Positions 1,411 through 16,581 of a DNA stretch of 27,026 nt are shown here, in pieces. Position 1 is the first letter of the stretch. Each line of letters opens with the position of its first letter. Source of the DNA: a virus. The notes under the pieces were generated by a model, which saw only the letters and a list, made by a program, of their open reading frames with translations, did not search any database and was not told the DNA's origin. A program made the translations under genes and the position numbers. Location: positions 1-27,026 of the IMG/VR virus record IMGVR_UViG_3300032893_000243. The stretch is one strand, 5' to 3'.

Positions 1411-1794
1411 CTAGGCGACGTTTTTGCCCTCGACGCCGCGCGCCATCCTGGCTTTTGTCCGCGACTTGAGTGCTTCGAGGCTCAGCAAGGCGTGATGAAG
1501 GGCTTCGCCGTTTTCCTTGCAAGCGAATGGTCCCGATTGGAACGAACGTAGCCGATCAATCACGATTGCCAGCAAGACCTCTTGTGTGATGCCGTTTACG
1601 CCCACTTCGCCGATGGGGCCGTTCTGAAAGCTGATATGGTGGTCGGCGATCTTGTGCGGCTTACCGCTGCCATCGTCGGTGGCCTCGATGCGGTATTCGT
1701 GGTTCGCGCCGCCAGCGCCGGGCTGGTCTGTGACCGTGATTTCAAGGCGGTCATTGACCGGGTTCGCAATGTGGTCCGTGATCTTTCTCAGCAT
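1411..1794 (-). CDS. Acb2/Tad1-family protein, probable anti-CBASS/anti-Thoeris nucleotide sponge
   Basis: This 127-residue protein starts at 1794, with AGGAG about eight bases upstream; the longer frame to 2037 overlaps two other small genes. The N-terminal half is beta-rich (LEITVTDQPGAGGANHEYRI). The core is FQNGPIGEVGVNGITQEVLL, then RLRSFQSGPFACKEN and a helical hairpin ending KSRTKARMARGVEG. This is the conserved pattern of the phage family now described as Acb2/Tad1 hairpin-domain proteins, which bind and sequester cyclic (oligo)nucleotide immune signals in the cytoplasm. F85, N95, R112 and R116 have the same mutual spacing as the ligand-contacting F82, N92, R109 and R113 that I recall for a clostridial Tad1. 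Which ligand this member binds cannot be read from sequence. Older annotations of the family as an ABC transporter ATPase are misleading. Confidence 0.8.
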   Translation of the reverse strand: MLRKITDHIANPVNDRLEITVTDQPGAGGANHEYRIEATDDGSGKPHKIADHHISFQNGPIGEVGVNGITQEVLLAIVIDRLRSFQSGPFACKENGEALHHALLSLEALKSRTKARMARGVEGKNVA

Positions 1795-1814
1795 GTCGTT
1801 CTCCTCTGAACTTG

Positions 1815-1961
1815 TTAATTTCCAAAAAGTGAGTTGAGCGCGCCAGCCATCACGGTGAGACACATCAAGATCGCGCTGATCCACACGAACGAGTCCGCGG
1901 GCACACCGTGATAAACGCCCGACCCGAAAAGAAACAAGACGTATAGATGCTCGAAGGTCAT
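1815..1961 (-). CDS. 48-residue membrane protein, unknown function
   Basis: The frame starts ATG at 1961 and ends TAA at 1815-1817. The protein reads MTFEHLYVLFLFGSGVYHGV at the start and has a second hydrophobic stretch, FVWISAILMCLTVMAGAL, at about residues 25-42, so it probably crosses the inner membrane twice. GGGAGG lies ten bases upstream. The start overlaps the stop of the previous small gene as ATGA. It sits directly upstream of the Acb2/Tad1-like gene, with a 20-base gap. No family recognised. Confidence 0.6.
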   Translation of the reverse strand: MTFEHLYVLFLFGSGVYHGVPADSFVWISAILMCLTVMAGALNSLFGN

Positions 1962-2059
1962 ATATTTCGGCCCTCCCAATGCGCCATCCAGAGCATCGCG
2001 GCGAGTGCCAGCGGGACGACGATAAAGTGAACAGCAAAGCTCGCGATTGTCGGCTGCAT
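1958..2059 (-). CDS. 33-residue single-pass membrane protein, tentative
   Basis: The frame reads MQPTIASFAVHFIVVPLALA, then AMLWMAHWEGRNI and a TGA that overlaps the next ATG. It would be one hydrophobic helix with a short polar tail. GAGG directly abuts the ATG, too close to be an ideal ribosome binding site. The ATGA overlap and the hydrophobic pattern support it; its size makes it uncertain. Confidence 0.45.
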   Translation of the reverse strand: MQPTIASFAVHFIVVPLALAAMLWMAHWEGRNI

Positions 2060-2081: not shown

Positions 2082-2118
2082 TTGACGCCAATTATGCGCT
2101 TTGCGCGTTGGGCGTCAA
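2082..2118 (-). other. Nested stem-loop downstream of a small gene
   Basis: TTGACGCC at 2082-2089 pairs perfectly with GGCGTCAA at 2111-2118, and inside the loop GCGC-TTT-GCGC forms a second hairpin. On the minus strand it lies one base after the stop of the 34-residue gene at 2120. No U-tract follows, so it is not a typical intrinsic terminator. It may stabilise or process the polycistronic mRNA. Confidence 0.45.
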
Positions 2119-2119
2119 G

Positions 2120-2224
2120 CTATTTCGCCAAGCGCACGCCGTCTCGCTTTTCCTTTTTGGCCTTTAGCTTCGTGACGCGATAGCCGGCGGCTTTCACCAT
2201 AGCGATAGCTTGTTCGAGTGTCAT
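2120..2224 (-). CDS. 34-residue basic protein, unknown function
   Basis: The frame reads MTLEQAIAMVKAAGYRVTKL followed by a Lys/Arg-rich tail and TAG. It has an N-terminal helix and a strongly basic C-terminus, as seen in small nucleic-acid-binding proteins. GGAG lies six bases upstream of the ATG, and the ATG overlaps the stop of the HTH gene as ATGA, which supports a real, coupled gene. No function can be assigned. Confidence 0.6.
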   Translation of the reverse strand: MTLEQAIAMVKAAGYRVTKLKAKKEKRDGVRLAK

Positions 2225-2463
2225 CGTGCGCTCCAATTCCATTGATTGACGTCAGGGATCTTGTAGTGGCGAAGGAACATCACGGCCAAGCAAGCGAGCT
2301 TGTAGCGCCTCCAGGCGTAGGGCGCGTGCGGCTTGCCTTGGCTGTTCTTGCCGGCCTCGTAGAGGAAGATAGACTCTTTGCTGTACCCTGTGAGATCGCT
2401 GAGCTCGGCCATGGTCAGACCCATGGCACGGCGCCAAGCGCGGGCTTGTTCGATCTCGCTCAT
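2221..2463 (-). CDS. XRE/Cro-like helix-turn-helix protein
   Basis: This 80-residue protein contains ARAWRRAMGLTMAELSDLTG followed by YSKESIFLYEAGKNSQGKP, which matches the pattern of an XRE/Cro-type HTH: a first helix, the turn with T-x-x-E-L-x-x-x-T-G and a recognition helix ending in Y/W-E-x-G. It should bind DNA as a small regulator. The start at 2463 has AAGGGAGG eight bases upstream and overlaps the stop of the previous gene as ATGA. It is internal to the leftward operon rather than next to a divergent promoter, so its operator is not obvious; palindromes at 4951-4969 and 5139-5155 are candidates. Confidence 0.75.
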   Translation of the reverse strand: MSEIEQARAWRRAMGLTMAELSDLTGYSKESIFLYEAGKNSQGKPHAPYAWRRYKLACLAVMFLRHYKIPDVNQWNWSAR

Positions 2464-2654: not shown

Positions 2655-2883
2655 TCTGAATTTCCTTCTTCATCATATCCAAGCCCGAAATTGTCTCCAG
2701 AAAGTCGAACGCGGTCGCTGACCCGGTGTAGTCCTCGCTGCCGTCGACCTTGCGCGACCATGCAGTATAGAAGTTCTGCCAGCGCTCGATCTGGCGGTCG
2801 AGGAAGGGGATATGCTCGGTTTTGGGAAGCGTCTCGAGGTGTTGCGAGACGCGGGTTAGGTAGGCGGTGACGGGGGAGGTCAT
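2647..2883 (-). CDS. Small helical protein of unknown function
   Basis: This 78-residue protein starts MTSPVTAYLTRVSQHLETLP and continues with a Trp-rich helix (RQIERWQNFYTAWSRKVDG). A TTG start four codons upstream is possible, but the ATG at 2883 overlaps the preceding stop as ATGA, which fits the coupling seen through this operon. The ribosome binding site is weak. No function recognised. Confidence 0.6.
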   Translation of the reverse strand: MTSPVTAYLTRVSQHLETLPKTEHIPFLDRQIERWQNFYTAWSRKVDGSEDYTGSATAFDFLETISGLDMMKKEIQNV

Positions 2884-3269
2884 GACCGTACCCAATACGT
2901 CACACCGCTGAAGTCAATCGCGGTGTAGTCCATACGCAATTCGCGCGCCGCGCGGTCCCAATCAATACAGTTGTTAGGCCACGAGGCTTCGCTATTGATA
3001 GCGCCAATGTCATCGGCGAGCTCTTGCGCGTACTCTTTGAAGTATGAGTCGCGAATCAGTGTCTCGCCGTACTTCCAATCGGCGCAACCTTCACCCTCGC
3101 TGGCAAGCTCGCGCAACGCGACTAGTTCTAGCGCGTCGTCATCTTCTTCGAGTGCATTGATTTTGTCCTCGATCCCTTCGATGGATTCAAGTTCCTTAAT
3201 GCGCTCGATAACGTCGCGCGAGTCGATAACGTCGTCGCTGTTGCTGATTTCGCGTGTCTTGGTTGTCAT
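2880..3269 (-). CDS. Acidic phage protein, possibly ArdA-like antirestriction
   Basis: This 129-residue protein has an acidic helical N-terminal part (about residues 18-60, IERIKELESIEGIEDKINAL). Its C-terminal part reads GETLIRDSYFKEYAQELADD, then WPNNCIDWDRAARELRMDYT and FSGVTYWVR. The C-terminal pattern (acidic helix, then I-D-W/Y-x-x-x-A-x-x-L and a final aromatic strand) resembles the end of ArdA DNA-mimic antirestriction proteins and a common phage hypothetical family. ArdA proteins inhibit type I restriction by mimicking DNA charge; whether this one does is inference. CAAGGGAG lies nine bases upstream of the start at 3269. Confidence 0.55.
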   Translation of the reverse strand: MTTKTREISNSDDVIDSRDVIERIKELESIEGIEDKINALEEDDDALELVALRELASEGEGCADWKYGETLIRDSYFKEYAQELADDIGAINSEASWPNNCIDWDRAARELRMDYTAIDFSGVTYWVRS

Positions 3270-3302
3270 CTTTCATATCTCCCTTGGACTCGTCAGGCGC
3301 CG

Positions 3303-3392
3303 CTACCGCGGCTCGATTAAAAATACTGCCGTGATGAAGGCAACGCCGAGCAAGAACCCGACAATGCCAGAAATATACATGGCTGTGGTCAC
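3303..3392 (-). CDS. 29-residue single-pass membrane protein
   Basis: The frame starts GTG at 3392, overlapping the stop of the previous gene as GTGA, with GAGG seven bases upstream. It reads MTTAMYISGIVGFLLGVAFI and ends TAVFLIEPR before TAG. It is one hydrophobic helix with a short charged end. Overlap and ribosome binding site support it despite its size. Function unknown. Confidence 0.55.
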   Translation of the reverse strand: MTTAMYISGIVGFLLGVAFITAVFLIEPR

Positions 3393-3623: not shown

Positions 3624-3652
3624 ATAGTATCCTGTACTAGTGGGGGAGTCAA
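3624..3652 (-). promoter_or_regulatory. Sigma70-like leftward early promoter
   Basis: On the minus strand TTGACT (3647-3652) and TACTAT (3624-3629) are separated by 17 bases. The -35 matches consensus at five of six positions and the -10 at four. The -35 box overlaps the last bases of the Endonuclease VII gene. It would drive the genes from 3598 leftward. Confidence 0.6.
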
Positions 3653-4149
3653 GCGTCTTTTGTCGGCGGATCGAGATCGACCAGCAATTTCACCGGCTCT
3701 TGCGGATCTTTTACCTTTATTTTGCGTAGCTTCCGCGCCTTGGCCGGCTGTGCAAAAGTGCCTTCCATGACTTGCGCTATAAGCCGGTCATGCTTGTGGA
3801 AGCCGGGCAAGTCAATATAGCCGAGATAGTCCAAGAGGCCGATGATTCGGCGTGGATCGTCGTGCAAAAAACCTAAGCCTTTATTGCAGTTACCACAAAG
3901 CAAGCCTCGAATAGAGCCGGTTTGGTGGCAGTGGTCTATGGCGCGACCTTGGCCATTGAGCGGTAAGGTAATATTGCATCCTATATTAGCGCAGCGGCCG
4001 TTTTGCGCGTCATAGAGCGCCTGCAGCTGATATGGATTGAGCCGCGGTGCCTTGGAGTAAGGCTTAGGCGCTTTCACGCGCCAGAGAAGGCCGTCAGTGT
4101 CAATGCTCGATAGAAGGCTTTCGCCTAGACCCTTACGTCGTCTTGGCAT
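3649..4149 (-). CDS. Endonuclease VII-like HNH nuclease
   Basis: This 166-residue protein has the zinc and active-site pattern of phage T4-type recombination Endonuclease VII: CANIGC, then GRAIDHCHQTGSIRGLLC and GNCNKGLG, at about residues 53-95. The DHCH core supplies catalytic Asp/His residues and the two Cys pairs bind structural zinc. The helix RIIGLLDYLGYI follows and the C-terminus is basic. Such enzymes cleave branched DNA, or act as homing-type HNH nucleases. The ATG at 4149 has GGAG six bases upstream and overlaps the preceding paralogue by 17 bases; the open frame to 4209 is ignored. Confidence 0.85.
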   Translation of the reverse strand: MPRRRKGLGESLLSSIDTDGLLWRVKAPKPYSKAPRLNPYQLQALYDAQNGRCANIGCNITLPLNGQGRAIDHCHQTGSIRGLLCGNCNKGLGFLHDDPRRIIGLLDYLGYIDLPGFHKHDRLIAQVMEGTFAQPAKARKLRKIKVKDPQEPVKLLVDLDPPTKDA

Positions 4150-5634: not shown

Positions 5635-5771
5635 TGCGCCAACTCGACAAACTCGTGAAAGAACTCTGTGACGTGATCGACAAGTACTCGACGTTGCGCC
5701 AGTGTCAGATCGCCGCGGCGCTCGAGTATATCCGCTCGGGCGTGGTCAAAGAGCCCAAGAAAGCCGCGTGA
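5634..5771 (+). CDS. 45-residue helical protein, unknown function
   Basis: The protein reads MRQLDKLVKELCDVIDKYST and then a second helix with QIAAALEYIRSG and a Lys-rich end. The ATG overlaps the KTSC gene's stop as TGATG and GAGGGG lies about seven bases upstream. It is likely a small two-helix protein. Function unknown. Confidence 0.65.
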   Translation: MRQLDKLVKELCDVIDKYSTLRQCQIAAALEYIRSGVVKEPKKAA

Positions 5772-6586
5772 CCACCGCCGATCTATTTCACGCGCTCAAG
5801 CAGCGCTCGCTCAAGCTCGACAATTTCTTTCCGATCTACGACCGCCTGTTCGAGCGCTACCGGCATCGCGAGCACATCACTATCGTCGAAGTCGGCGTGC
5901 GCGACGGCGGCTCGCTCGAGCTCTGGCGTGCGCTGTTCCCCAACGCCCGCATCATCGGCGTGGACATCATGCCGGCGGCTGCACTTATGCGGCAGCAGGG
6001 CTTCGAGATTTACATCGCCGATCAGTGCGACCCGGTGTTCTGGGAGAATTTTTATCGCGACATAGGACCGATCGACATCCTGATCGACGACGGAGCGCAT
6101 ACCAACCGCGCGCAGATCGTCACGGTCGAGGCGGCGCTGCCGCACGTCCGCGACGGCGGGCTGATCCTCGTCGAGGACACGGTGACGAGCTACCTGGCCT
6201 ATCGCGGCAACCCGTCGCGCTATTCGTTCGTCAATTACGCGCAGCGCATGATCGCCGAAATCGCCAAGCGCTCGGAGTACCTGGCCGACCGGCCGCGCTC
6301 GCGGTTCACCGATGCGGTGTGGACGGTGCAGTTTTTCGATTCCATCGTCGCCATCGAGATCGACCGCCGGCTGTGCGGGCGCTCAAGCGTGGTCGTGGCG
6401 GGACAGGAGACGCTTGGCGCGGTAGGCTACGACAACAAGCCGCTACTCGGGCAGGGGCTGCGCAGGCGGGTACGCGGCGCCGCGCGCGTCTTGGGTCTGG
6501 AGAAATCCGCGATCGCGCTGTACGATGCGCTCAAGCGCTGGCAGTACGTGATCGAGAACCAAAGGCTGGGCAGATACTTTCGATGA
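5768..6586 (+). CDS. MycE/TylF-like sugar O-methyltransferase
   Basis: This 272-residue protein starts with GTG overlapping the previous stop (GTGA). Residues 41-50 (EVGVRDGGSL) are the SAM-binding motif I and IIGVDI (62-67) ends with the acidic residue that binds the ribose. PIDILIDDGAHTNRAQ (about 101-116) and LVEDTVTSY (134-142) match the metal-binding and catalytic stretches IDDGSH and ED-x-x-TSY of the Mg-dependent macrolide sugar O-methyltransferases MycE and TylF. The reaction expected is methyl transfer from SAM to a sugar hydroxyl. It sits directly before the terminase with an ATGA overlap, an unusual place for a glycan enzyme. The substrate is unknown; a surface polysaccharide is plausible given the O-antigen ligase-like gene at 25028. 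The C-terminal 90 residues are basic and less typical. Confidence 0.75.
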   Translation: MTTADLFHALKQRSLKLDNFFPIYDRLFERYRHREHITIVEVGVRDGGSLELWRALFPNARIIGVDIMPAAALMRQQGFEIYIADQCDPVFWENFYRDIGPIDILIDDGAHTNRAQIVTVEAALPHVRDGGLILVEDTVTSYLAYRGNPSRYSFVNYAQRMIAEIAKRSEYLADRPRSRFTDAVWTVQFFDSIVAIEIDRRLCGRSSVVVAGQETLGAVGYDNKPLLGQGLRRRVRGAARVLGLEKSAIALYDALKRWQYVIENQRLGRYFR

Positions 6587-14768: not shown

Positions 14769-16115
14769 ATGGCCGTCAATCAGTCGTCATCCTTTCAGGC
14801 TGACATTGAAGCCTATATTGCCGACAAAACCCTTCCTCTCGCGCGCCGACAGCTGGTGGTTTACCAGTTCGGCGACCCGCTAACTCTCCCCAAAGGGCGC
14901 GGGCTTACCTATACCGCCACCCGATATAACCGCGTTTCCTTGCCGTGGGCGCCGCTCTCCGAGGGCGTGCCGCCGGTCGGCGAGGTCATGACGATCGGTC
15001 AGGTCACCGCGACCGCTCTGCAGTGGGGCGACAAGATCACCATTACCGACGTCGCGGAGATGACGATCAAGCACCCGCTGTTCAAGAAGGCGATCGAGCT
15101 TCTCGGCCTTCAGGTGGCGGAAACGCTGGAGCGCAACACCTTCAACAACCTGATGGGCGGCGCCCAGATCAACTACGTCAATTCCCGCGGCTCGCGGGCG
15201 TCGCTGACGACCGGCGACGTGATGAATACTCACGAGCTTAACCGCGCCTATGCGATGCTCGTGACTCTCGGCGCTCCGCGTTTCATGGGCGACGAGATGA
15301 CCGATACCAAGCTCGAGGCCGATGCCGGCGGGGCCAAGGCGTCGAGCAACCCACGGTCGATGCCGCATTACGTCTCGGTCATCCATCCGTTTCCGGCTTC
15401 GGACCTACGCGAGAACCAGGCGATCCAGACCGCGTGGTCGTACTCGGACATCAACCGGCTTTACAACTTTGAACTCGGCGAGTGGTCGGGTATCCGGTTC
15501 TGCATGTCGAACATGGTGCCGACTTTCACCGGCATCGCGCTCATCACCGGCACGCCGGGGTCCTCGGGCAACCTGGCGACTTCGACCACCTACAATATCA
15601 TCGTTACCGCCTCGGACACGCAAAACCAGTACGAAAGCCAGATTTACCAGGTGTCCGGTAACCTTTCCGTTACGGGCCCGAACGGCTCGATCGCGGTGAC
15701 GCTGCCGACGCTTGCCGGCTACACCTTCAACATTTATGTCGGCACCAGCTCGAGCCCGTCGAATCTGGGTGTCTGCGCAGCTGGCCCGACAAGCGGCCCG
15801 TTGCAGGGGCAGGCGACGCAGTTGGCCGGCGGTCAGACCGTGACCATCACCGGCATTGGTGTTGCGCAGATCCCGCCCGCGGCGCCGGCAACCGGTGTCA
15901 CCGTCTATCCGAATTTCGTGTTCGGCCGCGGCGCCTACGGTCAGGTCATGCTCGATGACACGAAGTTCACCTACCTCAAGGAAGCGGATAAGTCCGATCC
16001 GCTCAACCAGCTTCGCGTGGTAGGATGGAAGACATTCCACGGCACTCTGTTTTTAAACCAGCAGTTCATGATGCGAATTGAATCAACTTCTGCGTTCAAC
16101 TCCACGTTCGGCTAA
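14769..16115 (+). CDS. Major capsid protein, N4-gp56-like, with Ig-like insertion
   Basis: This 448-residue protein has VYQFGDPLTLPKGRGLTYTA (31-50) and LPWAPLSEGVPPVGEVM, then ALQWGDKITITDVAEM (83-98), ELLGLQVAETLERNTFNNLM and, near the end, FVFGRGAYGQVML (383-395). These are the landmarks of the N4-gp56 family of HK97-fold capsid proteins. Residues about 255-378 are an extra block rich in Thr, Ser and Gly (TSTTYNIIVTASDTQNQYES, TLAGYTFNIYVGTSSS) that looks like an Ig-like beta sandwich inserted before the last part. The insert would be displayed on the capsid surface. GGAG lies seven bases upstream of the ATG. Its 3' end overlaps the convergent nuclease gene by 20 bases. Confidence 0.88.
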   Translation: MAVNQSSSFQADIEAYIADKTLPLARRQLVVYQFGDPLTLPKGRGLTYTATRYNRVSLPWAPLSEGVPPVGEVMTIGQVTATALQWGDKITITDVAEMTIKHPLFKKAIELLGLQVAETLERNTFNNLMGGAQINYVNSRGSRASLTTGDVMNTHELNRAYAMLVTLGAPRFMGDEMTDTKLEADAGGAKASSNPRSMPHYVSVIHPFPASDLRENQAIQTAWSYSDINRLYNFELGEWSGIRFCMSNMVPTFTGIALITGTPGSSGNLATSTTYNIIVTASDTQNQYESQIYQVSGNLSVTGPNGSIAVTLPTLAGYTFNIYVGTSSSPSNLGVCAAGPTSGPLQGQATQLAGGQTVTITGIGVAQIPPAAPATGVTVYPNFVFGRGAYGQVMLDDTKFTYLKEADKSDPLNQLRVVGWKTFHGTLFLNQQFMMRIESTSAFNSTFG

Positions 16116-16581
16116 GATAGTTGATCGCGGAGACGAGCGTAGAAACGCTGTGGTGGAAATGCCCGATGACCAGATTGCAACTGGAGCAAAGCAACCCTCG
16201 GACTTTTCCAGTGTCGTGGCAGTGATCGACATGAAAGCGACCTTTACCTCCAGGTTTGTCGGTGCCGCAGATCGCGCAGCAGCCGTTCTGTTCTTGCAGC
16301 ATGCGCGCGAAAGCGCCGCGCTCAAGACCGTAGGATTTTTTCAGACCGTATTCATGCCAACGACCTGGATCGGCTTGTCTTCGTCGTTTTTGATCTTCTG
16401 CCATCTTCGCAAGATTTTGTCGGCGCCACGCGTCATGCCGAGCGCTATTACACGGCTTGCAATAAACTTGGTAACCGTGGACGGTGGCACTACTCTTGTG
16501 AAACTCCGACAGCGGTTTAGTTTGTCCGCACTTCGGGCATTCTTTTTCTCCGCTGGAAAGATCGAGTGGTTTGCCGCGCAT
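16096..16581 (-). CDS. Endonuclease VII-family HNH nuclease, antisense to the late operon
   Basis: This 161-residue protein has an N-terminal zinc finger-like part, ECPKCGQTKPLSEFHKSS (14-31) with YCKPCNSARH, and a C-terminal Endonuclease VII domain: CCAICGTDKPGG, then FHVDHCHDTGKVRGLLCSSC and NLVIGHF. All catalytic and zinc residues are present. Layout and placement match free-standing HNH endonucleases that spread between phages. It is the only minus-strand gene in the late region, sits between the capsid gene and the next structural gene, and has its own ribosome binding site (CAAGGGAG, eight bases upstream) and promoter (16609-16637). Confidence 0.88.
   Translation of the reverse strand: MRGKPLDLSSGEKECPKCGQTKPLSEFHKSSATVHGYQVYCKPCNSARHDAWRRQNLAKMAEDQKRRRQADPGRWHEYGLKKSYGLERGAFARMLQEQNGCCAICGTDKPGGKGRFHVDHCHDTGKVRGLLCSSCNLVIGHFHHSVSTLVSAINYLSRTWS

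Follow-up and report, generated by a model that had tools for sequence, protein, structure and literature searches.

A phage-encoded Tad1 homologue behind a promoter with apparently exchangeable cargo on a soil virus fragment

Tad1 stands for Thoeris anti-defence 1, while Acb2 consists of a short N-terminal helix and two antiparallel helices and is devoid of a beta-sheet. Tad1 forms a hexamer whose subunits share six pockets for gcADPR and dinucleotides, while trinucleotides occupy another two sites (PMC12043709). Binding of gcADPR and trinucleotides is conserved across the tested Tad1 homologues, the dinucleotide range differs among them, and for Tad1 of SBSphiJ7 anti-Thoeris activity was verified experimentally (PMC12043709). 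The gp184 protein of the jumbo phage phiKZ has been described as a Tad1 with activity against both CBASS and Thoeris (PMC12043709; PMC13282480), and also as being injected by the phage. Furthermore, the Panoptes defence is tripped by some co-expressed Tad1 proteins (PMC12657218).

The window analysed here is an entire virus record, a 27,026-bp fragment of a soil phage for which no near-identical known phages were found. Terminase and major capsid genes, backed by matches to annotated phage genes, are located on the plus strand, and the large ORF adjoining the terminase gene probably encodes the portal protein. The minus strand carries, over about 4.5 kb towards the left end, two endonuclease VII-like genes, an ArdA-like gene, an HTH gene, small membrane protein ORFs, and tad1. 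Due to the presence of terminase and capsid genes on the same record, tad1 is considered phage-encoded, and the strand layout of the genes suggests that the left arm including tad1 is expressed early. The features of this arm are as follows.

1411..1794, minus strand: tad1 homologue of 127 aa with an N-terminal beta-sheet and two long C-terminal helices; F85, N95, R112, and R116 are the putative ligand residues.
1795..1814, minus strand: ribosome-binding site AGGAG (CAAGTTCAGAGGAGAACGAC-ATG), just 5' of the tad1 start codon.
1815..1979, minus strand: ORF of 54 aa with a TTG start between promoter and tad1; hydrophobic stretches, maximal 19-residue hydropathy of 2.09.
2091..2118, minus strand: sigma-70-like promoter TTGACG-16-CATAAT, the top score in the region; same hexamers in the sister phage L218, 92% identity over 38 bp.
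2221..2463, minus strand: small HTH protein; this upstream gene is conserved in the sister phage with 82% identity.
2880..3269, minus strand: ArdA-like protein of 129 aa; 22.6 bits with the ArdA Pfam model, 1e-7 with a PHROG anti-restriction family; a weak assignment.
3259..3304, minus strand: 46-bp leader with ribosome-binding site, 98% identical at 2393-2438 of L218.

The product of 1411-1794 is a Tad1 homologue, which adds a hitherto unannotated protein to a known family. Searched alone against all PDB chains, it matched only Tad1 proteins and phiKZ gp184, with E-values of 3e-13 to 1e-12 against solved Tad1 structures and CmTad1 as the top single-sequence match (3e-13). A profile built from 39 viral sequences reached Tad1 chains down to 7e-27 and, besides gp184, no other chain up to E 5; Acb2 chains were thus absent from the matches in this range. 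The protein also matches PHROG 2428, a family of unknown function, at 5e-29, and scans with Pfam, NCBIfam, and PADLOC yielded no matches. All three sequence motifs quoted by an earlier note on this DNA as the family core are indeed present. The hairpin HMM search proposed in the same note failed, as the Acb2/Tad1 hairpin model PF24729 does not match the window protein even at E 10. The model does match 26 of the 39 aligned family sequences (best 8e-9) and the positive controls SBSphiJ7 Tad1 and cbTad1, so the miss reflects a sensitivity limit of this short model; in the window protein, the second half of the hairpin has diverged. Among the 26 is L002, 73% identical to the window protein, with a match below the cut-off. 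Since the model misses members such as the window protein, sponges are undercounted when annotated by the current PF24729.

Residues F85, N95, R112, and R116 correspond in the PDB alignment to F82, N92, R109, and R113 of cbTad1 (numbering of 8kbg_D, whose aligned stretch begins one residue earlier than in 7uav), which we take to be ligand contacts. As the earlier note had stated, they occur at these positions with a spacing of 10, 17, and 4 residues that is identical to cbTad1. All four are invariant in the alignment of the window protein with 38 viral relatives, most of which fall into a single branch, separate from the Bacillota members with biochemical data. When SBSphiJ7 Tad1, CmTad1, cbTad1, and the PhiPA3 protein are added, N95, R112, and R116 are still invariant, and F85 is replaced by Y in PhiPA3.

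Among the described proteins, cbTad1 of a Clostridium botulinum prophage (PDB 7UAV, 7UAW, 8SMD, 8KBE, and 8KBF) resembles window Tad1 in full-length fold, F/N/R/R pocket, and length, but is 40% identical over the aligned part and about 32% identical in structural alignment; the fourth strand is followed by a loop that reads GPIGEVGVNGI in the window protein and GARKEEKSQHGV in cbTad1. CmTad1 (PDB 8KBB; 8KBC with cAAA; 8KBD with cAAG) has the FQxGPIxExGxNG loop and the helical hairpin in common with window Tad1, but the sequence match spans residues 52-124 only, and the tree places CmTad1 among the Bacillota members. Pocket residues and hairpin are likewise found in SBSphiJ7 Tad1, which differs by an identity of 35% and a dissimilar N-terminal part. 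The jumbo-phage proteins phiKZ gp184 and PhiPA3 gp217 contain a homologous C-terminal domain with the same N/R/R residues, but also a long N-terminal extension that window Tad1 lacks. A comparable extension was observed in a 265-aa protein of an Endomicrobium MAG (L102:7431-8228) with a C-terminal Tad1 domain matched by PF24729.

In the tree, window Tad1 falls into a group of mainly proteobacterial phages that is separate from the Bacillota group; support within the tree is patchy, and cbTad1 and PhiPA3 are situated on long branches. Tad1 relatives are spread over unrelated phages and over contigs from many phyla. Across about 100 loci, no conserved genetic partner of tad1 was detected and a terminase-like gene, near tad1 in 13 loci, is the sole recurring neighbour; therefore no linked system is indicated. 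Window Tad1 is a well-supported, unannotated addition from a branch of phages in which we encountered no solved structure.

Judged from sequence and predicted fold, the gene very probably encodes a Tad1 sponge for host immune nucleotides. Hexamer, binding, ligand range, and anti-defence effect are transferred here from the studied Tad1 proteins, and gcADPR and cyclic trinucleotides are the expected ligands. By this analogy, Tad1 would be produced from the minus-strand operon, assemble as a trimer of dimers, and sequester the nucleotides of host immunity in uncleaved form. Six pockets between the protomers would take up the Thoeris signal gcADPR, and in case of some homologues also cyclic dinucleotides, and the two trimer faces would take up the cyclic trinucleotides of CBASS. 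Effectors would then stay inactive and the infected cell would live long enough for phage replication.

Due to an identity of only 40%, the ligand specificity could differ from that of cbTad1. A rival reading is a Tad1 fold with a shifted ligand range, e.g., a protein that mainly binds CBASS di- or trinucleotides, or an undescribed host nucleotide signal, and gcADPR only weakly. The placement of window Tad1 among mainly proteobacterial phages, outside the Bacillota branch with SBSphiJ7 and CmTad1, is consistent with such a shift, as are the second hairpin helix, which in the 39-sequence alignment has diverged from most relatives, and the variable dinucleotide range of the tested Tad1 proteins (PMC12043709). 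However, the four residues of the gcADPR pocket are invariant, and binding of gcADPR and trinucleotides is the conserved property of the tested homologues (PMC12043709), so that we regard a shifted range as rather unlikely.

That tad1 is a decayed or non-functional remnant appears highly improbable. Nothing speaks directly for it, although PF24729 does miss the protein, and against it stand an intact minus-strand frame of 127 codons (1794 to 1411), a good ribosome-binding site, the invariant pocket residues, and a dN/dS of about 0.10-0.16 relative to near relatives, from which we conclude that the gene is under purifying selection.

The AlphaFold2 monomer model of window Tad1 (pLDDT 86.4) comprises strands at residues 3-5, 17-21, 33-40, and 46-55 and helices at 71-87 and 93-118. 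The best 20 Foldseek rows for this model are all Tad1 (E 6e-11 to 1e-7), followed by a row at 0.2, and the VIA-align comparison to cbTad1 gave a Z of 13.9, a TM of 0.84, and 2.6 A over 124 residues, compared to Z values of at most 6.9 for unrelated rows. According to the model, the protein is of the Tad1 type, with its N-terminal beta-sheet and two long helices, and not of the Acb2 type. Of the Acb2/Tad1 family assignment made previously, the Tad1 part is therefore retained on sequence and fold, and the Acb2 part is dropped. Although one Pfam hairpin family is common to both, the chance of an Acb2-type sponge is negligible, and Acb2 as the closest family is ruled out by the full-length homology to Tad1 chains, the profile matches free of Acb2, and the four N-terminal strands.

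The Tad1 gene is preceded by the 54-aa ORF at 1815..1979, which probably encodes a small membrane protein and gave no match in a family search, and by the promoter at 2091..2118. Two repeats at 2069-2118 of the window (minus strand), the palindrome GCGCAAAGCGC and the inverted repeat TTGACGCC/GGCGTCAA, overlap with this promoter-like site and possibly represent an operator of the HTH protein encoded at 2221-2463. For the palindrome itself no operator role is claimed, as its occurrence over the whole window is within chance expectation.

The window phage groups with viral contigs whose capsid proteins are 70-93% identical. With a profile that does find the window gene, tad1 was detected in none of 30 records of related phages, the majority of which span 41-47 kb. 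The closest relative is L218 with 88% identity for terminase and portal each, and 93% for the capsid (L106 of the same contig). L218 keeps the HTH gene (82%), the 2647 gene (74%), and the promoter (L218:1425-1452, minus strand). Behind this promoter, tad1 gives way to genes for a small hydrophobic protein and for a restriction alleviation protein of the Lar type. The Lar-type gene (L218:805-1020, minus strand) is supported by a Pfam match of 1.2e-7, above the cut-off. Similarly, the 46-bp leader is followed in L218 by a gene for an unrelated 100-aa protein instead of the ArdA-like gene. Since the same promoter precedes tad1 in the window and a Lar-type gene in L218, the slot behind it seems to hold exchangeable counter-defence genes, which, with two phages, is a lead rather than a demonstration. 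Tentatively, one may extend this to a so far uncultivated soil-phage lineage in which swappable counter-defence genes, Tad1 here and Lar-type in the sister phage, dock at a slot provided by a conserved early promoter and leader. In other members of the lineage, anti-defence proteins not yet described would then be enriched among the genes of this slot. A conserved promoter with swapped cargo could in this way guide the search for anti-defence candidates in related soil phages.

The earlier note had also proposed a counter-defence island with an antirestriction-like gene. The former is borne out in part by the Lar-type gene in the equivalent slot of the sister phage. In case of the latter, the PHROG anti-restriction match agrees, but the ArdA Pfam score remains under the 27-bit cut-off of PF07275. 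Weak ArdA matches occur in 14 of 23 relatives of the 2880-3269 protein, and ArdA (2w82) is the top, non-significant Foldseek row for its predicted fold (E 0.11). The product is probably, though not provenly, a relative of ArdA, an anti-restriction DNA mimic.

On the plus strand, an ORF upstream of the terminase gene (5768-6586) resembles by eye a SAM-dependent methyltransferase; it has no relative in the related phage loci examined. Directly after the capsid gene, a zinc-finger ORF is located in antisense (16096-16581, minus strand), which looks endonuclease VII-like and is possibly a homing endonuclease. Relatives of the endonuclease VII protein of the left arm (3649-4149) were observed in 15 related loci, in most of them, e.g., L109 and L119, likewise directly after the capsid gene.
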